Of a stretch of DNA of 47,427 bases, positions 35,253-47,159 are shown piece after piece (the first letter of the stretch is position 1; each line of letters opens with the position of its first letter). Both the position numbers and the translations under genes were made by a program. Source of the DNA: an uncultured Flavobacteriales bacterium (lineage in GTDB: Bacteria > Bacteroidota > Bacteroidia > Palsa-965); the NCBI GenBank assembly GCA_903873905.1, contig CAIQQJ010000014.1:1-47427 (forward strand), written 5' to 3'. The notes below the pieces were generated by a model. It saw only the letters and a list, made by a program, of their open reading frames with translations, ran no database searches and was not told the origin of the DNA.

Positions 35253-37376
35253 TTATGCTTTTTGTGTTTTCTTACCATTTGCTTTTGCTATTACTTCTTC
35301 AGAAGTGCTTTTTGGAGCTTCAGCATAATGTGAAAATTCCATTGTAGAAGAAGCGCGACCAGAAGTAATCGTACGCAATTGCGTTACGTAACCAAACATT
35401 TCAGAAAGAGGGACTTTTGCTTTTACCACTTGTATACCTGCTCTTGAATCCATTCCTTCAATTTGTCCGCGACGTTTATTCAAGTCACCAACAACATCTC
35501 CCATATTTTGTTCCGGTGTAAGTACTTCTACTTTCATGATCGGTTCAAGAAGAACAGGTTTTGCTTTTGGCAAAGCTTCGCGATAAGCTGATTTTGCACA
35601 AATTTCAAAAGACAATGCATCAGAGTCAACATCGTGGTAAGATCCATCAGAAAGAAGAATCTTCATGGTTTGAACAGGATAACCTGCAAGCACACCATTT
35701 ACCATTGATGCACGGAATCCTTTTTCAATTGCAGGAATGAATTCGCGAGGAATATTTCCACCGCTGATTTCATTGATGAATTGAAGTCCTCCATTTTTTG
35801 CATCAGGAACGAAGTCAGCATCAACAGGCGATACTGTGAATTTAATATCAGCGAACTTACCACGACCACCGGTTTGTTTTTTGTAAACTTCACGGTGAGT
35901 AACAGTTCCAGTGAAAGCTTCCTTGAAGTTAACCTGAGGCGCACCTTGATTTACTTCAACTTTGAATTCACGACGAAGACGATCAACGATGATTTCCAAG
36001 TGAAGCTCACCCATTCCACTGATAATGGTCTGTGCGTTTTCTTCATCAGTACGAACTCGGAATGTAGGATCTTCCTCAGCAAGCTTTGAAAGAGCAATAC
36101 CCAATTTATCTAAGTCAACTTGTGTTTTTGGTTCAACCGCAATTCCGATAACAGGCTCTGGGAAGTTCATCGCCTCAAGAACGATTGGATGATCTTCAGC
36201 GCAAAGTGTATCGCCGGTCTTTATGTCTTTGAATCCAACTGCTGCTCCAATATCTCCAGCTTCAATAAATGGAATCTGGTTTTGTTTATTAGCGTGCATT
36301 TGGAAAATACGAGAAATACGTTCTTTGTTTCCAGAACGAGTGTTCAGGACATAAGAACCTGAATCAAGTCGGCCTGCGTAAACTCGGAAATATGCAAGAC
36401 GTCCAACGAAAGGATCAGTTGCAATTTTGAAAGCTAAAGCGGTAAATGGCTCATTAACATCCGGCTTACGGGAAATTTCTTCTCCTGTATCAGGATCAGT
36501 ACCCATTGTAGCCTTTTTGTCCATTGGTGAAGGCATCAGCTCCATTACGTAATCGAGCATTGTCTGTACACCTTTATTTTTGAAAGCTGAACCGCAAACC
36601 ATTGGAACAATTTTGTTCGCAATACATGCTTTACGAAGAGCTGTAAGAATTTCCTGTTCAGAAATAGAATTTGGATCGTCGAAGAATTTCTCCATCAACT
36701 TATCGTCAAATTCAGAAACTGATTCTAATAATTTTTCACGCCATTCAGCAACATCCGCAAGCATGTCTTCAGGAATAGGAACTTCTGTGAAAGTCATTCC
36801 TTGATCCGCTTCATTCCAAACAATTCCACGGTTGTTAATTAAATCAACAACACCTTTGAAATTTTCTTCCCCACCAATTGGCAACTGAAGTGGAACAGGA
36901 TTACCACCGAGAACTTCTTTTACTTGTTTTACAACATTAAGGAAGTCGGCACCTGCACGGTCCATCTTATTGACGAAACCAATACGGGTTACATTATAAT
37001 TATCGGCAAGACGCCAGTTAGTTTCAGATTGAGGCTCAACACCATCAACTGAAGAGAAAAGAAAAACCAATCCGTCCAATACACGAAGAGAACGATTTAC
37101 TTCAACAGTAAAATCTACGTGACCAGGAGTGTCAATGATATTGACTTTGTAATTATTGTTACGGTATTTCCAAAAGCAAGTTGTAGCAGCAGAAGTGATG
37201 GTTATTCCACGCTCTTGCTCCTGCACCATCCAATCCATTGTAGCAGCACCATCGTGAACTTCACCAATTTTGTGATTCACTCCGGCATAATAAAGTACAC
37301 GCTCGGTGCAGGTTGTTTTTCCCGCATCGATGTGGGCAGCTATCCCAATGTTCCTCGTATATGCTAAATCGCTCAT
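35253..37376 (-). CDS. fusA: elongation factor G
   Basis: The 707-residue GTPase drives ribosomal translocation. The G domain shows AHIDAGKTT (G1, 14-22), [11 protein letters not shown] (switch I), DTPGHVDF (82-89) and [10 protein letters not shown] (136-145). Domains II-V follow, including [21 protein letters not shown] and the domain IV tip region [21 protein letters not shown]. The chain ends [27 protein letters not shown]. Length and motifs are those of canonical EF-G. Confidence 0.98.
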
Positions 37377-37402
37377 ATTCTTTTTTCCCTACAATGGATT
37401 AA

Positions 37403-37870
37403 TTACAGACGGAAATGCGCATAAGCTTTGTTCGCTTCTGCCATTCTGTGAGTATCTTCTTTCTTTTTAAATGCAGCACCTTCTTCTTTTGCAGCAGCCA
37501 CGATCTCAGCAGCCAAACGAGCGGCCATTGATTTCTCATTGCGTACACGAGAATAGCTGATTAGCCATTTCATGCCAAGTGCTGTACGACGCTCAGGACG
37601 AATTTCCTGTGGAATCTGGAATGTAGCTCCACCTACTCGGCGGCTACGGACTTCAACGTTTGGTGTTACGTTAATAAGTGCCTTTTTCCAAGTTTCCAAT
37701 CCGTCAGCATCTGCTTTCTTTTGTACGATTTCAATAGCATCGTAGAAAAGAATATACGCTGTAGATTTTTTGCCTTGGTACATCAGGCTGTTTACGAAAC
37801 GTGTGACCAAGATGTCCGAAAATTTCGGATCTGGAAGAAGTGGTCGTTTTTTTGCTCTAGCTTTTCTCAT
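37403..37870 (-). CDS. rpsG: 30S ribosomal protein S7
   Basis: The 155-residue protein begins [20 protein letters not shown] and has [42 protein letters not shown] and [21 protein letters not shown]7 nucleates the 30S head and is the str-operon repressor in E. coli. It lies 26 nt ahead of fusA. Confidence 0.98.
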
Positions 37871-37902
37871 TTGATTGAGAGGTAATCAGTTTATAAATGA
37901 AA

Positions 37903-38307
37903 TTATTTTTTCGGAGCGGCTTTTCCAGCAGCACCAGCTTTTGCTCTTTTGGTTCCGTATTTTGAACGGCGTTGGTTGCGACCTTCTACACCTGCGGTAT
38001 CGAGTGCGCCACGAACAATATGATAACGTACTCCAGGAAGATCCTTTACACGTCCACCACGAACAAGAACAATTGAGTGCTCTTGCAAGTTGTGTCCTTC
38101 ACCTGGGATGTAGGCAATTACTTCAAGTTTGTTTGTCAAACGTACTTTAGCCACTTTGCGAAGTGCAGAATTCGGCTTCTTCGGTGTCGTTGTGTACACA
38201 CGGGTGCAGATACCACGCTTTTGCGGGCAGCTGTCCAAACCTGCAGACTTACTCTTGTTGAGCGTCTTGGTCCGGCCTTTACGTACGAGTTGATTAATCG
38301 TTGGCAT
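37903..38307 (-). CDS. rpsL: 30S ribosomal protein S12
   Basis: The 134-residue decoding-centre protein has [21 protein letters not shown] and [21 protein letters not shown]. Lys43 and Lys88, the classic streptomycin-resistance positions, are both wild type, and Asp89 (the methylthiolation site) is present. The tail [15 protein letters not shown] is slightly extended. It is the first gene of the superoperon, with a promoter about 75 nt upstream. Confidence 0.98.
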
Positions 38308-38381
38308 GAGAACTTTACAGTTTGTTGATAATCAGTAGTTTTTGCTAAAAGTATATACCCCTATCCTGTTTTTGGGGAGGG

Positions 38382-38410
38382 CAAAGGTAAGAATTCTTCT
38401 TTATAAACAA
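38382..38410 (-). promoter_or_regulatory. promoter of the ribosomal superoperon
   Basis: On the minus strand TTG (38410-38408) and TACCTTTG (38389-38382) are separated by 18 nt, fitting the Bacteroidota -33/-7 pattern. It predicts a leader of about 70 nt before rpsL. Confidence 0.6.
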
Positions 38411-38887
38411 CATCCTGCAAAATTTATTTTTAGACAGATTTCAGAACCAATAAATGGATGGTCGGAAACTATTAGATTTTTCCCCTCAAAAATGGGTAAA
38501 ACTCGGGCTATGAGAGGAGAAATGGGATAGAGATACTTTGACCAAAGGCCTAAATCTGAGCTCCGAATTAACAGAATATTGTGAATTTGGTTGAAATTGA
38601 AAGGCCAATTTTCGATTTTTTCTTTCAACTATTTTCTGGCAGCCAATTTACTTGTCGGAAATTTTGATCAGAAATTCACGAAAATCCTTGATGATTCTTT
38701 TGCTTCCATTTTTTTGATTTGATCTGCGTAATTTTTGATTGCCAGTTACCACTTCCTGCTTTCAAGGAAAAATTAGAAAGCAAAAAAGGATAAAACCAAA
38801 ATCTCCCGAAAGCAAATCCTTAAGACTCAAAATCCTCAACCCGATTTTCCTCGGTATTGCTTGCCAAAAAAATGTCTAGCCTTTTCC

Positions 38888-38895
38888 TACATTTG
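38888..38895 (+). promoter_or_regulatory. putative -7 promoter element of the KAS III cassette
   Basis: TACATTTG (TAnnTTTG) ends 5 nt before the ATG at 38901. A TTG lies 24 nt upstream, slightly too far. The transcript would be leaderless or have only a few leader bases. Confidence 0.4.
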
Positions 38896-38900
38896 ACATA

Positions 38901-39905
38901 ATGGCGTCAACAATAAAAGCAATCAGTTATTATTTACCGGAAAAAATCTATTCCAACGAAGATTTTTTTCAGGATTTCCCCAATACCAAAAGTTCTAGTC
39001 TTTTAAAAGTGGGAGTTGAAAAACGTCACCTTGCAAAAAAAAATGAGCTTGCTTCCGATATGGCTTTTGCTGCTGCGGAAAAACTTTTTTCTGAACACCA
39101 AATTGATAGAAACACAATTGATTTTTTGATTGTCTCCATACTTGAGCATGATTTTTATGGCCCACCTTCTGGCTGTTTCCTTCATGGAAAATTGGGGCTG
39201 AAAAAGAATTGTGGGGCTATTGATTTTGACCTTGGGTGCAGTGCTTACGTATATGGACTCGGGTTAGCGGATGGTGTTATGAAATCTATGGGAGCGAAAA
39301 CCGTACTACTCCTTACCGTTTCCGCGCTCTCAAAAAAAATCCATGAAAATGACCGTAGTTCCCGATTTGTATTTGGAGATGCTGCCTCTGCCACTCTATT
39401 AAGGTATTCAGAAAAGGAGCATATCGGTCCTTTTGTTTTCGGAACTGATGGGGAAGGTTATGAAAAAATAATTGTGCGAGATGGCGCTGCACGTTTTCCA
39501 TTGACAGATAATTCGTCGGAAGAAATCAAGGATGAATTTGGGAATATTTCTGCCAATGAAAATCTCATTATGGATGGGATGGGTATTTTCCTTTTTTCTA
39601 TTCGTACTGTGCCTCCCATGGTTGAAGAACTCTTGACAAAAGCGAGTTTGACTCAAAACGATATTGATCTTTTTATTTTTCATCAGCCCAATTCATTTCT
39701 GAATGAAACTTTGAGAAAAAAAATGGGTATCCCAGAAACAAAATTTGTTCATTGCATGAAGGATTTTGGGAATACGGTGCAAAACACCATACCGATTGCC
39801 ATTTATGAATCTCAAAAAAATGGCAGGCTGCAGCCAGGAATGAAAGTGGTGTTGGCAGGATTTGGTTCTGGATTATCTTGGGCGGCAACGATTGTTCAAT
39901 TCTAG
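38901..39905 (+). CDS. 3-oxoacyl-ACP synthase III family protein (first KAS III)
   Basis: The 334-residue thiolase-fold enzyme has the complete FabH triad: Cys113 in FDLGCSAYVYGL, His261 in FIFHQPNSFLNETL and Asn291 in DFGNTVQNTIPIAI. The terminal GFGSGLSWAATIV strand is typical. FabH-type enzymes condense an acyl-CoA with malonyl-ACP or transfer acyl groups. HQPN replaces the more common HQAN. It is the first of six plus-strand genes and is followed after 48 nt by an ACP. Because a second KAS III follows the ACP, this is unlikely to be housekeeping FabH; a role in making a short acyl chain for surface glycan decoration is inferred. Confidence 0.9.
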   Translation: MASTIKAISYYLPEKIYSNEDFFQDFPNTKSSSLLKVGVEKRHLAKKNELASDMAFAAAEKLFSEHQIDRNTIDFLIVSILEHDFYGPPSGCFLHGKLGLKKNCGAIDFDLGCSAYVYGLGLADGVMKSMGAKTVLLLTVSALSKKIHENDRSSRFVFGDAASATLLRYSEKEHIGPFVFGTDGEGYEKIIVRDGAARFPLTDNSSEEIKDEFGNISANENLIMDGMGIFLFSIRTVPPMVEELLTKASLTQNDIDLFIFHQPNSFLNETLRKKMGIPETKFVHCMKDFGNTVQNTIPIAIYESQKNGRLQPGMKVVLAGFGSGLSWAATIVQF

Positions 39906-39926
39906 AATTGGCCGCACAGAAATTGT

Positions 39927-39934
39927 TACTTTTG
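39927..39934 (+). promoter_or_regulatory. possible internal -7 promoter element before the ACP gene
   Basis: TACTTTTG lies 19 nt ahead of the ACP ATG, with TTG at 39908-39910 (16-nt spacer). It could give separate expression of the ACP and the genes after it. Confidence 0.35.
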
Positions 39935-39953
39935 AATTTATACCTTGAATATT

Positions 39954-40187
39954 ATGGATGACATTTCTGTTTTCATTCGGAAAATTGAAAGTGAAATTGA
40001 GGAGCTTACACCTGGAACCTTAAAACCAGAAACGCATTATCGTGAATTACCTGAATGGAGTTCGATGCATGCCTTAATTCTGATTGCCCTTTCTGAAACG
40101 GAATACGATGTTAGTTTGAGCGGTGAAGATTTGCGCAAATGCGAAACTTTGAGAGACGTACACACACTTATTTCAACGCGTACCTGA
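39954..40187 (+). CDS. dedicated acyl carrier protein
   Basis: The 77-residue acidic, helical protein has the phosphopantetheine site in PEWSSMHALILIALSETEY. Ser37, directly before Met, is the likely attachment residue (the D-S-L of standard ACP reads S-S-M). Helix III is SGEDLRKCETLRDVHTLI. I use ATG 39954; an in-frame TTG three codons upstream is less likely. Its stop is one base before the second KAS III start, indicating coupling. It probably carries the acyl intermediates of this cassette rather than those of general fatty-acid synthesis. Confidence 0.85.
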   Translation: MDDISVFIRKIESEIEELTPGTLKPETHYRELPEWSSMHALILIALSETEYDVSLSGEDLRKCETLRDVHTLISTRT

Positions 40188-40188
40188 G

Positions 40189-41238
40189 ATGGCACTTTTT
40201 TCTGTCAACGGAATGAGAATAAAAGGAATTGCAGCAGCTGTTCCAAAAGCGATGGAATCCAATCGAGATTATGAACGAATTTCTGAAGCGGAAAGAAATT
40301 TATTAATCCGCACAACAGGAATTACAACACGGCATATTGCAAGTCCAGGAATGACTACGGCGGATTTTTGCCAACACGCTGCAGAAAAATTAATCGAAGA
40401 ATTGAAATGGCAAAAGTCAGAAATTGATCTTGTTATTTTTGTTTCACAATCACCTGATCATTTTTTACCTGCGTCTTCCATATTACTTCAACATAAACTT
40501 GGCCTTCCAAAAACAACAGCAGCTTTCGATATCAGTCTTGGTTGCAGTGGATATGTATATGGACTATCAGTTGTTTCTTCGCTGATTTCCACTGGAGGAT
40601 TTAGAAAAGCATTGTTAATGACAGGTGATATTTCATCGCATTCCATAACACCGGAAGATAAAAGTACTTGGCCCTTATTCGGCGATGCGGGAACAGCAAC
40701 TGCAATTGAATTTGATTCTGGTTCAAAATCATTTTTCAATTTACAGAGTGATGGAAGTGGTGCAAATGCAATTATCATTCCCGATGGAGGACTTCGAAAT
40801 CCGATTAATGAAAAAACATTTATAAAGGAAGAAGTTGAAAAAGGAATTGTTCGCCACCGTAGAAATCTTTGGTTGAATGGCCTCGATGTTTTTAATTTTT
40901 CTGTTCGGGAAGCGCCTTCAAATATTAAAACATTGATGGAATTCTCCAATGTAAATCAGGAATCAATTGATTTTTTCGTTTTCCATCAGGCCAATTTATT
41001 AATGAATGAAACGATCCGAAAAAAGTTGAAAGTGCCTTCCGAAAAAGTGCCTTATTCTTTGGCTGAATTCGGGAATACAAGTTCGGCATCAATTCCCCTT
41101 ACGATTGTTTCCCAATTGAAAAGTCAAACTTCAACGCCAAAAAAATGGCTATTCTCTGGATTCGGTGTAGGACTTTCTTGGGCTTCCGCCTATCTTGAAA
41201 CAGAAAACATTCTTTGCCCAGATGTGTTGTACATTTAA
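40189..41238 (+). CDS. 3-oxoacyl-ACP synthase III family protein (second KAS III)
   Basis: The 349-residue paralogue of the first KAS III has Cys119 in DISLGCSGYVYGL, His266 in FVFHQANLLMNETI and Asn296 in EFGNTSSASIPLTI, all intact, plus the GVGLSWASAYLE end strand. Both copies share the unusual YVYGL context after the active Cys, which suggests an old duplication. They may form two successive steps or a heterodimer. It starts 1 nt after the ACP stop and ends 15 nt before the SDR gene. Confidence 0.9.
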   Translation: MALFSVNGMRIKGIAAAVPKAMESNRDYERISEAERNLLIRTTGITTRHIASPGMTTADFCQHAAEKLIEELKWQKSEIDLVIFVSQSPDHFLPASSILLQHKLGLPKTTAAFDISLGCSGYVYGLSVVSSLISTGGFRKALLMTGDISSHSITPEDKSTWPLFGDAGTATAIEFDSGSKSFFNLQSDGSGANAIIIPDGGLRNPINEKTFIKEEVEKGIVRHRRNLWLNGLDVFNFSVREAPSNIKTLMEFSNVNQESIDFFVFHQANLLMNETIRKKLKVPSEKVPYSLAEFGNTSSASIPLTIVSQLKSQTSTPKKWLFSGFGVGLSWASAYLETENILCPDVLYI

Positions 41239-41253
41239 CACAGAAATTTGATC

Positions 41254-42006
41254 ATGACGGAAACACCTTTTCATCTTCATAACAAAACCATTCTGGTAAC
41301 AGGAGCTTCTTCCGGTATTGGCCGACAAGTTGCTATCAGTGCCAGCAATATGGGTGCTACTCTCCTTCTTTCTGGAAGAAATTCCGCTGAGTTGGAAAAA
41401 ACAATTTCTCTTTTATCCGGCGCAAATCATAAAATCATTTCTGCAGATCTTCTTTTGCAGCATGAAAGGGAAAATCTTGCAAATGAAATCCCCATGTTGG
41501 ACGGAATTGTTCATTGTGCAGGAACTGTAAAACCATTTCCGATAAAATTTCTCGATCAGAAAAAACTGGACGAAACGCTCAAGATAAATTACGAAGCGCC
41601 GGTATTGATGATGGCGGCAATTTTGAAAAATAAAAAACTGAATAAAAACGCATCGCTTGTTTTTCTTTCATCCATTTCCGGACAACATCCGCATAAAGGT
41701 GGAACACTGTATGCAGGATCAAAAGCGGCAATTGAATCATTTGCAAAAGTGCTCAGTCTGGAACTTTATCCACAGGGAATTCGTGCAAATTGCATTTCTC
41801 CAGCCATGGTAAAAACACCAATGTTTGACCAAGCTGCAGATGAAATGTCGAAGGAAGAAATGGAAAAACATATTGGCAAATATCCACTCGGAGTGGGATT
41901 GCCAGAAGACGTTGCAAATGCTGCGATTTTTTTGCTCTCCCCTGCCGCGCGTTGGATCACAGGAATAAATATTACTTTGGACGGAGGCTTTCTCCTCATT
42001 GGATAA
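41254..42006 (+). CDS. SDR-family oxidoreductase, FabG-like 3-oxoacyl-ACP reductase
   Basis: The 250-residue classical short-chain dehydrogenase has the cofactor motif TGASSGIG (17-24), an NNAG-equivalent reading HCAG, catalytic Ser140 in FLSSISG, and Tyr153/Lys157 in YAGSKAA. It ends in SPAARWITGINITLDGGFLL, as in FabG. In this context it likely reduces a 3-oxoacyl-ACP made by the KAS III proteins to a 3-hydroxyacyl-ACP, using NADPH. ATG 41254 is preferred over an in-frame TTG two codons earlier. It is 3 nt ahead of the GT2 gene. Confidence 0.9.
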   Translation: MTETPFHLHNKTILVTGASSGIGRQVAISASNMGATLLLSGRNSAELEKTISLLSGANHKIISADLLLQHERENLANEIPMLDGIVHCAGTVKPFPIKFLDQKKLDETLKINYEAPVLMMAAILKNKKLNKNASLVFLSSISGQHPHKGGTLYAGSKAAIESFAKVLSLELYPQGIRANCISPAMVKTPMFDQAADEMSKEEMEKHIGKYPLGVGLPEDVANAAIFLLSPAARWITGINITLDGGFLLIG

Positions 42007-42009
42007 ATT

Positions 42010-42936
42010 ATGAATACTGAATTACTTTCTATTGTCATTCCTGTATACAACAGCGCTGAAACGTTGGATGAATTGTTTTCCCAAATCCAAAAAAGTTTGA
42101 ATGGAAAACAAAAATTCGAAGTCATTTTGGTTGATGATGGTAGTAAGGATGAGAGTTGGAAAAAAATCGTTTCATTAAAAGTTGCGCACCCTGAAGAAAT
42201 AAGAGGCGTTCAACTTTCCAGAAATTTCGGACAACACAATGCACTTGTTTGCGGATTCAGTTTTGCGAAGGGCGATTTGGTATTGACGATGGATGATGAC
42301 TTACAACATCCTCCTTCTGAGATACCTAAAATGTTGGAGGCTTTCCATTCTAAAAATGTCGATGTCGTGTATGGCATTTACAATACCAATAAGAAACACA
42401 GTTCAACGCGGAATGCGGGTAGTCTTTTTATACAACGTAGTTCGAAAATGGTTGGCGGAAATCTTGGAATGGGAAGTTCCTTTCGACTGATGAAAAAAGC
42501 GCTAGTTGAAAAAGTTGTTTACCATAAATACCAATCGAATGTATTTATTGATGAAATTCTTCATTGGTACACAACTCATTTTGCAACAGTCGAAGTCGAA
42601 CATCACGAACGCAAAGCTGGAAAATCGGGATATACCATGTACCGATTGATCATGATGTATTTTGACATTCTAGTCAACTACACTGCAATTCCACTGAAGA
42701 TGATGACATGGATCGGATTGATTTCTTCACTCACCACTTTTGCAATTGGTGTTCGGTTTATCATTCACAAATTCAGGACGCCACACATTCAATTAGGATT
42801 CACAGCACAAATTGTTGCCATACTTTTCTCGACCAGTCTGTTGATGTTTTGTATGGGAATTATCGGACAATACATGTATAAAATTTATCACCTCCAGAGT
42901 CGTCGACCTTCTTGGTTCATTTCGGAAATCCTATAA
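42010..42936 (+). CDS. membrane GT2 glycosyltransferase (polyprenyl-phosphate sugar transferase type)
   Basis: The 308-residue protein begins LSIVIPVYNSAETLDELF, with DDGSKDESW (42-50), LSRNFGQHNALVCGFSFAKGD and TMDDDLQHPP (Asp95-97). Two hydrophobic segments near the C-terminus (~225-258 and ~265-295) anchor it in the membrane. This is the GtrB/ArnC/DPM1-like architecture, which makes polyprenyl-phosphate-linked sugars at the inner leaflet. Coupled to the SDR gene, it ties the cassette to envelope glycan synthesis. Donor and acceptor are unknown. Confidence 0.9.
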   Translation: MNTELLSIVIPVYNSAETLDELFSQIQKSLNGKQKFEVILVDDGSKDESWKKIVSLKVAHPEEIRGVQLSRNFGQHNALVCGFSFAKGDLVLTMDDDLQHPPSEIPKMLEAFHSKNVDVVYGIYNTNKKHSSTRNAGSLFIQRSSKMVGGNLGMGSSFRLMKKALVEKVVYHKYQSNVFIDEILHWYTTHFATVEVEHHERKAGKSGYTMYRLIMMYFDILVNYTAIPLKMMTWIGLISSLTTFAIGVRFIIHKFRTPHIQLGFTAQIVAILFSTSLLMFCMGIIGQYMYKIYHLQSRRPSWFISEIL

Positions 42937-42945
42937 TTGAATCCC

Positions 42946-42953
42946 TATATTTG
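42946..42953 (+). promoter_or_regulatory. possible -7 promoter element before the GNAT gene
   Basis: TATATTTG (TAnnTTTG) ends 4 nt before the ATG at 42958. The 21-nt GT2-GNAT gap therefore may contain a secondary promoter giving a leaderless message. No -33 TTG stands at the right distance. Confidence 0.3.
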
Positions 42954-42957
42954 AAGT

Positions 42958-43608
42958 ATGATAATCCACGGATTTGGCGTTACACTTATCCGACTCCAAC
43001 ATTCAGATATTGAATTGGTGAGAATGCACAGAAATTCTTCTGTGATCAACCAGTACATGGAATTCCGTGAACAGATTTCCAAGGAACAACAGGAAAAATG
43101 GTTTCTTTCCATCAACAATTTACACAACAACTATTTTATCATTGAGTACCAAGGCAACAAAATTGGCTTGATATATGGTGCGGGAATTGACTGGCAAAAA
43201 AAAGAAACCCAAAACGGCGGCATTTTTATTTGGGAAGAAAAATGGTTGGAAACTCAAGCACCGCTAGCCGCTTCCTTGATGTTAACTGAAATTTCATTTT
43301 TACTAGGACTTGACCGAACCTACATCAAAGTGCTAAAAGAAAACACACGAGCTGTTGCCTTTAATTACAACCTTGGCTATGAACTTTTGCCTGATCAGGA
43401 CAAGGTGCAGAATCAAAAATATGTTTTGACAAAGGAAAGTTATTATAAAAAGGCGGGACAATTTCGTGCACCATACTTAAAATTACACGGTGATGTATTT
43501 AACATATCACTGGATCATCCAGAAGAAGAATTGGAAATTAATTTTAAGGCTATTTATGATTCACAGCCAGCTGAAATCAAAAAACGATTACAGCTATCGA
43601 CATGCTGA
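42958..43608 (+). CDS. GNAT-family N-acyltransferase
   Basis: This 216-residue protein has a GNAT domain in its first ~150 residues. YFIIEYQGNKIGLIYGAGID forms the central strands, and KENTRAVAFNYNLGYELL is the C-terminal motif of sugar and amino-acid acetyltransferases (compare PseH and RimJ types). The usual Q/R-x-x-G-x-G/A pyrophosphate loop is not clear, which would fit a non-standard donor such as acyl-ACP. About 60 residues of unassigned C-terminus follow. As the last gene of the cassette it is the candidate that transfers the acyl group to an amino sugar. Confidence 0.75.
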   Translation: MIIHGFGVTLIRLQHSDIELVRMHRNSSVINQYMEFREQISKEQQEKWFLSINNLHNNYFIIEYQGNKIGLIYGAGIDWQKKETQNGGIFIWEEKWLETQAPLAASLMLTEISFLLGLDRTYIKVLKENTRAVAFNYNLGYELLPDQDKVQNQKYVLTKESYYKKAGQFRAPYLKLHGDVFNISLDHPEEELEINFKAIYDSQPAEIKKRLQLSTC

Positions 43609-43720: not shown

Positions 43721-44131
43721 ATGATTCGTAAAGAAAAAATCAATTCTTCCACTTTACCAGATATCAATCTTGGTCACTCCGTTATTATTCAGAGGGCTGA
43801 TGGTATTATTGAAATCGATTGCTGTGACAATTTTGAATATGAAGTTGAGCATATTCAAGAAAATTACAATCAAATAAAAAAACTCGTCGGCACAAAAAAA
43901 GTTCTGATTTTAAGTGTTACAAAACCTTTCACGACAACAACGAAAGACGTTAGAGATTTTATTGCATCAGCTCCTCATAGAGCTTTTGTAAAAGCAGAAG
44001 CTTTCCTCATTCATACACTCGGACAAACTATTATGGGGAACTTTTTTCTAAAAGTCAACAAGCCAATTGTGCCTGCAAAATTTTTCAAGAGCAAAACGGA
44101 GGCGGAAAAATGGTTAAAAAGTTTCGAGTAA
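43721..44131 (+). CDS. small STAS/SEC14-like domain protein
   Basis: The 136-residue alpha/beta protein has no signal peptide. Its second half contains VLILSVTKPFTTTTKDVRDF, then KAEAFLIHTLGQTIMGNFFLK and FFKSKTEAEKWLKSF. I recognise this as the STAS/SEC14-like DUF found in Bacteroidota (I believe DUF7793). The biochemical role is unknown. It converges on the next gene with a single base between the stop codons. Confidence 0.7.
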   Translation: MIRKEKINSSTLPDINLGHSVIIQRADGIIEIDCCDNFEYEVEHIQENYNQIKKLVGTKKVLILSVTKPFTTTTKDVRDFIASAPHRAFVKAEAFLIHTLGQTIMGNFFLKVNKPIVPAKFFKSKTEAEKWLKSFE

Positions 44132-45200: not shown

Positions 45201-45398
45201 TTCAATCTTCAAATCAGTTTATGAATTTACGAAAATATTTCGATGGGTATTATCGACCCGATGCAAGAGTGATATTAATCACTAAAAATGAATTAATATT
45301 AAGATACCAAAGCGAAAATCAAGTCCCTTTCAACTTGCCTGACAGAAAATTTTTTTATCTCGCTGCGCTTGTCTCAGAACTCAAGTCTATCTTTACCT

Positions 45399-47159
45399 AT
45401 GCGATTTATAAAACTTCTTCTCTCCATTTTTATGCTCGTGCTGATTAGCTCATGCGGCAGTAATGGCAAATTCCGTGCTCCCGTTAAGGAGAATGATAAA
45501 TACGGTTATATCAATGAAAACGGAAAGTACATTGTAAAACCCAAATTTGAAGTTGCATGGTCCTTCATCCGCGGCAGCGCGGTCGTGAAGGAAAATGGAA
45601 AATATGGTATCATTGACAAGGATGGAAAATATATTGTTGAACCCCAATTCGATTCCGTTATTCCATTCAGTTCCGCCTGCTGCATTATTGAAAAAGATTC
45701 TGCTTTCGGGTTTATGGAAAATGGAAGTGGAAAAGTCATTCTCAAACCCCAATTCAAAAAAGTATTTTATTACACCAACAAACTCTGCGTTGTGCAAAAA
45801 GGCAAAGCACTGGGATTAGTCAACCAAGATGGAAAAATTGTTTGTCCTGTCGTCATGCAGGATTTTAAGGATATGATTGGTCGCGGTGCAATCGTAATTC
45901 AGAACGACACCAGCGATGAAGTAAACATGCTGCTTTCCCTAATACAAGGTGGAGGAAATTCAAAAAAAGGTCTCATCAATGATAAAGGCGAAGTTATTTT
46001 ATCTCCAAAGTATGACGACATTTTTGATGATTTTACCAATGGATACTATTATCCCTTCCTACGTTCGCCCGGCGCTCCTTGCGATACAACACCTGATGTG
46101 GATGGCGAAGCTCCAATTGCCGTTGGAACATATGGCATTATCGACACAACAGGGAAAATTATTATTGAACCGATTTTTGACGAATTACCAGTATTTGGTG
46201 ATGGCATGTTTCGCATAAAAAAGGGGAATAAATATGGCTATGCTGACAAGAATGGTAATATTATAATACAACCTACTTTCACTTACGGAGTCGCTTTCAG
46301 TGAGGGAAAAGCCATTGTTTCGCCACGTGAAGGAAAGGCTTCCATCATCGACAAAACCGGAAAAATCCTTGTGGATGATCTTGGCGCAGGTTCGGGAATG
46401 TACCGCTTCTTCAATGGACTCGCACGCTGTCGTTCCATCGATGGGGAATATGGTTATCTCGATGAAACAGGCAAACGTGTCATCGCTCCAATTCTCGATG
46501 TGGCCGACGATTTTGAAAACAATCGTGCCATCGTAAGCCTCAATCACAAATATGGATTGATCGACAAAACCGGAAAATTTATTGTTCCAAATGATTATTA
46601 TTTTTTCTTCAACCTCGGCGGTGGCTATTACCAAACACAAGATCAAGATGGAAAAACCGGAGTGGTTGATTCATTGGGAAATGAAATCCTTAAACCGATT
46701 TATTCCGAGGTTTTCCATTTGCAAAACCATTTTTTTACCGTTGAAAAAGATGGACTGAATGGTTGCTATACGCTTCTAGGAAAAGAAATTTTTCCACCCG
46801 TTTCAAGTTCTGCCATTTATTTTTTCAATGGAAGAAGCAAGGTTATTAAAGATGGGAAAAGTGGGGTTATCGATAGCACTGGAAAATTTATTGTTCCAAT
46901 GGTTTACGACAGTATTGGTTATTTCTACAAAGGGTATGCGAATGTCCTGCTTGGAAATAAATTGGGAACAGTCGACTCAACAGGAAAAGTTGTGATTCAA
47001 CCGAAGTACGAAGAACTGAAACCATTCCTAAATGGATACGGGGTTTTCAAGGAAGAAGGAAAATATGGTTTCATCGATCTCAATGGAAAGGTTGTCATCG
47101 ATGCAAAATTTGATGCAGCTTCCGTATTGGTGGATCCCGATCGGAAAGAGTTTGAGTAA
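45399..47159 (+). CDS. WG-repeat lipoprotein
   Basis: The 586-residue protein starts at ATG 45399 (MRFIKLLLSIFMLVLISSCG). ISSC is a lipobox with Cys20, so it is a lipoprotein; no Lys-Asp/Glu-type surface export signal follows the Cys. About 15 repeats of ~34 residues fill the rest. Each has the form K-(Y/x)-G-x-(I/V)-(D/N)-x-x-G-K-x-(I/V)-(I/V)-x-P-x-(F/Y)-(D/E), for example KYGYINENGKYIVKPKFEVA and KLGTVDSTGKVVIQPKYEEL. WG repeats form beta-rich solenoids or propellers of unknown binding partner. An in-frame TTG ten codons upstream is rejected because it would mask the signal peptide. Confidence 0.88.
   Translation: MRFIKLLLSIFMLVLISSCGSNGKFRAPVKENDKYGYINENGKYIVKPKFEVAWSFIRGSAVVKENGKYGIIDKDGKYIVEPQFDSVIPFSSACCIIEKDSAFGFMENGSGKVILKPQFKKVFYYTNKLCVVQKGKALGLVNQDGKIVCPVVMQDFKDMIGRGAIVIQNDTSDEVNMLLSLIQGGGNSKKGLINDKGEVILSPKYDDIFDDFTNGYYYPFLRSPGAPCDTTPDVDGEAPIAVGTYGIIDTTGKIIIEPIFDELPVFGDGMFRIKKGNKYGYADKNGNIIIQPTFTYGVAFSEGKAIVSPREGKASIIDKTGKILVDDLGAGSGMYRFFNGLARCRSIDGEYGYLDETGKRVIAPILDVADDFENNRAIVSLNHKYGLIDKTGKFIVPNDYYFFFNLGGGYYQTQDQDGKTGVVDSLGNEILKPIYSEVFHLQNHFFTVEKDGLNGCYTLLGKEIFPPVSSSAIYFFNGRSKVIKDGKSGVIDSTGKFIVPMVYDSIGYFYKGYANVLLGNKLGTVDSTGKVVIQPKYEELKPFLNGYGVFKEEGKYGFIDLNGKVVIDAKFDAASVLVDPDRKEFE

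Follow-up and report, generated by a model that had tools for sequence, protein, structure and literature searches.

A conserved cassette predicted to make a lipid-linked acylated amino sugar

What could be made by six closely packed genes that place fatty-acid-type enzymes beside a glycosyltransferase and an N-acyltransferase? We addressed this question for a cassette of an uncultured Flavobacteriales bacterium, found in a window of 47,427 bases that comprises all of contig CAIQQJ010000014.1 (C14) from a 3.93-Mb Bacteroidia genome. The cassette encodes two beta-ketoacyl-acyl carrier protein synthases of type III (KAS III; here KAS1 and KAS2), an acyl carrier protein (ACP), a short-chain dehydrogenase/reductase (SDR), a family 2 glycosyltransferase (GT2) and a GCN5-related N-acetyltransferase (GNAT). 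With a probability of roughly 60%, we propose that it makes a lipid-linked N-acylated amino sugar, the ACP, KAS III enzymes and SDR supplying the acyl group, the GNAT attaching it, the GT2 loading the sugar onto a lipid and a membrane glycosyltransferase of the GT-C type acting afterwards. Such a product would probably decorate surface glycans or exported proteins. The observations given below concern gene content, active sites, linkage and co-occurrence.

All six genes lie on the plus strand at the positions given in Table 1, separated by gaps of 48, 1, 15, 3 and 21 nt, as the initial annotation, made from the letters of the window, had described, and their catalytic residues are intact. Pfam and NCBIfam assigned KAS III twice, SDR, GT2 and GNAT.

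Table 1. Genes of the cassette, with positions in the window.
Gene	Position	Strand	Assignment	Details
KAS1	38901-39905	+	KAS III-type beta-ketoacyl-ACP synthase, specialised (judged from sequence)	334 aa; Pfam ACP_syn_III/_C
ACP	39954-40187	+	Dedicated acyl carrier protein	77 aa from ATG; predicted 4'-phosphopantetheine site Ser37, motif W-S-S-M
KAS2	40189-41238	+	Second KAS III	349 aa; Pfam/NCBIfam
SDR	41254-42006	+	FabG-like, presumed 3-ketoacyl-ACP reductase	250 aa from ATG; Pfam adh_short_C2 8e-45
GT2	42010-42936	+	ArnC/GtrB-type, presumed polyprenyl-phosphate aminosugar transferase	308 aa
GNAT	42958-43608	+	Presumed N-acyltransferase of nucleotide-linked 4-amino sugar	216 aa

Conservation of the cassette across genomes

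The initial annotation had named rare co-occurrence of these genes in other genomes as a result that would speak against a common pathway; in fact, the six-gene order is strongly conserved. KAS2 orthologues (42-78% identity) were present in 25 of 99 related genomes, mostly with the entire cassette in order. A wider, alignment-based search yielded 80 loci, including those of Haloflavibacter, Aequorivita, Mesonia and Flavobacterium, and a single-protein query of contigs yielded none. Among the carriers are the cultivable species Aequorivita viscosa, Mesonia aquimarina and Haloflavibacter putidus. Among the 75 distinct untruncated KAS2 loci, the full order KAS1-ACP-KAS2-SDR-GT2-GNAT was found in 29, and both GT2 and GNAT in 64; the variants were nearly always losses from this one shared order, with median gaps near zero. 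Found again in dozens of genomes, and with such small gaps, this arrangement goes far beyond chance.

These loci were chosen by the presence of KAS2, a selection from which a class survey based on the GNAT is free. Of the 247 Bacteroidia genomes sampled, 47, about a fifth, carry the GNAT marker; they belong to 17 families. GT2 adjoined GNAT in all 20 regions fetched from genomes of this survey. Across 91 distinct GNAT loci, GT2 was present in 91, KAS2 in 87, SDR in 65 and KAS1 in 47; ACP counts in this set are too low owing to simple open reading frame calling. Of the two synthases, KAS2 is the more constant. In G006 the cassette is split, with SDR-GT2-GNAT beside the ribosomal genes and a second block, ACP-KAS2-KAS1, at a distance of about 20 kb; both parts are kept.

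The acyl module

Both KAS III enzymes have the complete Cys-His-Asn triad that had been claimed for them, namely C113/H261/N291 in KAS1 (invariant across 46 orthologues) and C119/H266/N296 in KAS2 (invariant across 94). We considered whether the two are duplicates of housekeeping FabH and rejected this, because they score 226 (KAS1) and 217 bits (KAS2) on the fabH model TIGR00747, below its cut-off of 292.1, and two other genes of the host genome exceed that cut-off. Judged from these scores, neither KAS1 nor KAS2 is the housekeeping enzyme, and KAS1 is classed as specialised.

The claim that the cassette has its own ACP also holds. The window protein alone is too divergent to give a significant Pfam match; 25 of 31 ACP orthologues matched PP-binding, and a profile of the orthologues retrieved solved ACPs. 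An AlphaFold2 model (predicted local distance difference test score, pLDDT, 91.5) has the four-helix ACP fold, with helix II (37-51) beginning at Ser37, a residue that does not vary among 71 orthologues. The protein is therefore expected to be a real carrier with 4'-phosphopantetheine attached at Ser37, as far as alignment and model indicate. An ACP lacking phosphopantetheine was another result that the initial annotation had named as adverse, and the invariance of this serine gives it no support. The SDR has the motifs TGxxxGxG, Ser and YxxxK. A dedicated ACP with an attachment serine stands beside KAS III and a ketoreductase, as in the hydroxyacylation loci of the wfp type (Flavobacterium psychrophilum) and the vio type (Pseudomonas syringae). 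By analogy with the 3,5-dihydroxyhexanoyl group of F. psychrophilum, the KAS III pair suggests one or two elongations and an acyl group of C4 or C6.

The glycosyltransferase and the presumed N-acyltransferase

The best solved relative of the GT2 was ArnC (9hwj, E=5.7e-47, residues 6-307), followed by GtrB (sll0501). An invariant DDD motif (95-97) and two candidate C-terminal transmembrane helices (234-252 and 268-286) accompany this full-length homology, and both features are shared with ArnC and GtrB, so that the GT2 belongs to the ArnC/GtrB type. However, it reached only 176.9 bits on the ArnC equivalog NF007986 (cut-off 529), and, in contrast to those enzymes, it has no Arn-pathway or GtrA genes adjoining; by these scores it is related to ArnC and is not ArnC itself. 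ArnC itself attaches an amino sugar to undecaprenyl phosphate.

For the GNAT, a profile search gave FdhC (5kta, 2e-11) as the best solved match; SpeG scored almost as well and PseH rather lower. The structural model (pLDDT 96.9) matches the folds of PseH, SpeG and FdhC. FdhC (PDB 5kta, 5ktc) is a sugar 3-hydroxybutyryltransferase, and its product complex contains CoA and a 3-hydroxybutanoylamino dideoxyhexose, 3-[(R)-3-hydroxybutanoylamino]-3,6-dideoxygalactose. This bears on the third result that the initial annotation had named as adverse, a GNAT restricted to acetyl-CoA. The two enzymes also differ: the FdhC structure holds CoA and the product of a 3-amino sugar, and FdhC shares only ~20% identity with the cassette GNAT, whereas the latter has its own ACP nearby and a C-terminal extension (about residues 180-216) barely covered by solved matches. 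Thirteen alignment columns are invariant in GNAT orthologues. The candidate sugar N-acyltransferase beside the acyl module is FdhC-like by profile only, and not of the PglD type seen in wfpG; from these comparisons, we presume it to be an N-acyltransferase of a nucleotide-linked 4-amino sugar.

Source of the amino sugar

The window cassette contains no aminotransferase, in contrast to wfp/vio-type loci, where the 4-amino-sugar transaminase is in the same locus, and the initial annotation had concluded that another part of the genome must supply the sugar. This proved right. The host genome has five clear DegT-family genes, one of which, on another contig (C45:57485), scored 492 bits on NF008687 (dTDP-4-amino-4,6-dideoxygalactose transaminase, cut-off 375) and fell just below the cut-off of the related model TIGR02379; RmlB was also found in this genome. 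In other genomes, a WecE-type gene adjoins the cassette or is close to it in L057, L079, L088, L122, G021, G115, G144 and G142, and about 6 kb away in G080, making nine loci. Over the 247 genomes, WecE was present in 41 of 47 with the cassette versus 53 of 200 without it (p=1.3e-14), and, with kinship handled solely by collapsing to genera, in 21 of 25 versus 41 of 116 (p=1e-5). The control transaminase PseC showed no link (15/47 versus 65/200, p=1.0). The missing sugar source is therefore probably WecE, encoded elsewhere in the genome.

With the acyl-ACP logic unchanged, the GNAT might instead act on a different nucleotide-linked amino sugar (Fuc3N, Qui4N, Ara4N or one of the bacillosamine type), the WecE link then reflecting no more than genomes with many surface polysaccharide genes. 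FdhC works on a 3-amino sugar, ArnC, by its name, on formyl-Ara4N, and related KAS2 modules sit with different sugar genes in other Bacteroidota loci, with NeuB/PseG-like genes in L114 and a PglD-like gene in L115, as judged from protein starts only. Nevertheless, we regard this alternative as unlikely, given that PseC, another aminosugar transaminase, lacks any association, and that WecE-type genes are cassette-linked in several families.

A probable downstream GT-C glycosyltransferase

The commonest extra genes within 3.5 kb of the cassette encode TMTC-like GT-C enzymes with tetratricopeptide repeats (34 loci), PAPS-type sulfotransferases (33) and members of the Asp/Asn-hydroxylase family (22). 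A GT-C gene was near the cassette in 40 of the 91 distinct GNAT loci, and, in the first sample, GT-C relatives were present in 26 of 26 genomes with the cassette versus 38 of 73 others. In a tree biased by its sampling, the sequences having been collected with a profile built from cassette-adjacent members, nearly all GT-Cs that adjoin the cassette or come from cassette-bearing genomes clustered in a single group with 49 members (support 0.95), two of them encoded in the window's genome. This group is almost confined to genomes with the cassette, and the GT-Cs of cassette-negative genomes were mostly in a separate group. The TMTC-like clade is likely to provide the next enzyme after the cassette. 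According to a recent review, the oligosaccharyltransferase, ligase and core-glycan flippase of Bacteroidota protein O-glycosylation are still undiscovered (PMC12871550), and the cassette-linked GT-C clade offers concrete candidates for a step related to these gaps.

Proposed pathway and its alternatives

We infer each chemical step of the route below, as well as the identities of the acyl group, the sugar and the acceptor, from the foregoing comparisons. In the first step, the private ACP, in its holo form at Ser37, would hold malonyl or acetoacetyl units, KAS2 and KAS1 would condense them once or twice, and reduction of the ketone by the SDR would yield a 3-hydroxyacyl-ACP with a short chain, of C4 or, where the two KAS III enzymes both act, of C6. 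The GNAT would then use this acyl group to N-acylate a nucleotide-linked 4-amino-4,6-dideoxyhexose, in all likelihood dTDP-Fuc4N from the WecE-type transaminase, and the ArnC-like GT2 would put the N-acylated amino sugar on undecaprenyl phosphate. After flipping, the TMTC-like GT-C would pass the sugar to an acceptor outside the cytoplasmic membrane. If this model holds, it describes a surface modification made through a private acyl-carrier system, with the sugar precursor and the likely final transferase named.

The private acyl-glycan pathway put forward in the initial annotation is well supported by the conserved cassette; its order of events fared less well, since the sugar is probably acylated while still nucleotide-linked and only then loaded onto the lipid. 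The reverse order, in which the GT2 first makes an undecaprenyl-phosphate-linked amino sugar that the GNAT acylates afterwards, would fit the inseparability of GT2 and GNAT (91/91 loci). It is improbable in view of the solved relatives FdhC and PseH, which, by their structure titles, use nucleotide-linked sugars. In a further alternative, the product would be a signalling lipid or a small molecule for secretion: KAS III, ACP and SDR would build an acyl chain, the GNAT would join it to an amine in the style of acyl-amino-acid or homoserine-lactone synthases, and the GT2 would glycosylate it. Some GNAT-fold enzymes use acyl-ACP, and some cassettes have AMP-ligase and MBOAT genes nearby. This reading is nevertheless highly improbable, because the GT2 matches polyprenyl-phosphate enzymes of the ArnC type over its full length and the GT-C and WecE associations indicate glycan assembly.

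Several observations weigh against the route from hydroxyacyl-ACP to a lipid-linked N-acyl amino sugar. Some loci lack KAS1 or SDR (ACP-KAS2-GT2-GNAT in 11 of 75), so that their product need not be a hydroxyacyl group; these loci may use the cell's own FabG or make a different acyl group. Fold comparison cannot separate FdhC and PseH from the polyamine acetyltransferase SpeG, the Z scores being tied, and the GNAT is under the cut-off of the PseH equivalog TIGR03585 (46.7 versus 93.1 bits). WecE is common in cassette-negative genomes too (26%), where it may serve other glycans, and a clear WecE was not found in five cassette-bearing genomes. In addition, a GtrA-type flippase was sought in the host genome and not found, and the GT-C tree, given its bias, is supporting and not decisive.

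A more specific version of the route can be offered tentatively. Undecaprenyl-phosphate-linked N-(hydroxyacyl)-Fuc4N, built by the private ACP, KAS III, GNAT and ArnC-like GT2, would be the donor for a dedicated TMTC-like GT-C clade. This would amount to a so far undescribed route, widespread in Bacteroidota, for glycosylating the surface or proteins, in which sulfotransferases and Asp/Asn-type hydroxylases would often do further tailoring; taken as a whole, we hold this to be possible but doubtful.

Comparison with known systems

Genomes with the cassette resemble those making enterobacterial common antigen in having a WecE-type transaminase, which here co-occurs with the cassette. In that system, the GNAT-type WecD N-acetylates dTDP-Fuc4N; the route uses acetyl-CoA and a Wzx/Wzy repeat-unit pathway, with no ACP/KAS III module.

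By gene content, the cassette is close to wfpC-wfpD-wfpE-wfpF plus wfpG of F. psychrophilum, also a member of Bacteroidota, which likewise comprise two ketoacyl-ACP synthases, their own ACP and a ketoacyl reductase (PMC6519341). There, the predicted product of wfpC/D/E/F is a 3,5-dihydroxyhexanoyl group that would N-acylate the 4-amino sugar Qui2NAc4N, and the system differs in its PglD-homologue acyltransferase, loading by a PglC-type phosphosugar transferase and position in an O-antigen locus with its own aminotransferase (PMC6519341). The cassette, in contrast, has a GNAT and an ArnC-type GT2 in a stand-alone unit beside ribosomal genes.

The viosamine island of P. syringae (vioA, vioM, vioT, vioS, vioB, vioR, acp) similarly uses KAS III, ACP and a reductase to acylate a dTDP-4-amino-4,6-dideoxyhexose: vioS/vioR/acp/vioB supply 3-hydroxybutyryl to dTDP-viosamine, and deletion of vioR led to loss of the modified sugar (PMC3927599). 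Unlike the cassette, the island has a single KAS III and an aminotransferase within it, and none of its seven genes encodes a GT2 of the ArnC type for lipid loading; VioT is a 1,173-aa transferase that adds the sugar to a flagellin glycan (PMC3927599). Taken together, the parts of the cassette resemble known pathways, and the pairing of an acyl module with GNAT and ArnC-type GT2 as a stand-alone unit appears undescribed, as no earlier description of it was found in the open-access literature.

Surroundings of the cassette

The genes rpsL, rpsG and fusA adjoin the cassette in the window (37000-38901). Whole or partial cassettes beside the same genes were also seen in relatives of the same family (L033, L034, L035, L036, L038 and L202), and this neighbourhood is apparently the ancestral position within the family. 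A functional tie to the ribosomal operon was rejected, and the neighbourhood is regarded as incidental, because the cassettes of other families sit in unrelated surroundings. The Bacteroidota promoter motif TANNTTTG occurs before KAS1 (38888) and GNAT (42946), with a frequency in the window not above chance.

Some other genes recur next to cassettes elsewhere. A family of ~290-340 aa ('HIINP...' start), with no significant Pfam or NCBIfam match, recurs as a neighbour of the cassette at 19 of the 91 loci, in many cases convergent with GNAT (for example L053:12388-13359, L192:3014-3874 and L052:12110-13045); the L052 copy has a weak GT2-like match (E 0.04). The Bacteroidales-type loci L067, L069, L079, L080, L081 and L088 have one to three genes for B12-binding radical SAM proteins (~460 aa) beside the cassette. 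A Tpt1/KptA RNA 2'-phosphotransferase gene lies in or beside the cassettes L037 (11108-11668) and L036 (12122-12685, called from similarity of the protein start alone).

Downstream of the window cassette, and outside its conserved part, a plus-strand gene (43721-44131) encodes a DUF7793 protein. Near the contig end, positions 45369-47159 encode a 596-aa protein of repeated 'KYGYIDENGKYIVKPKF'-like units of the WG-repeat type.

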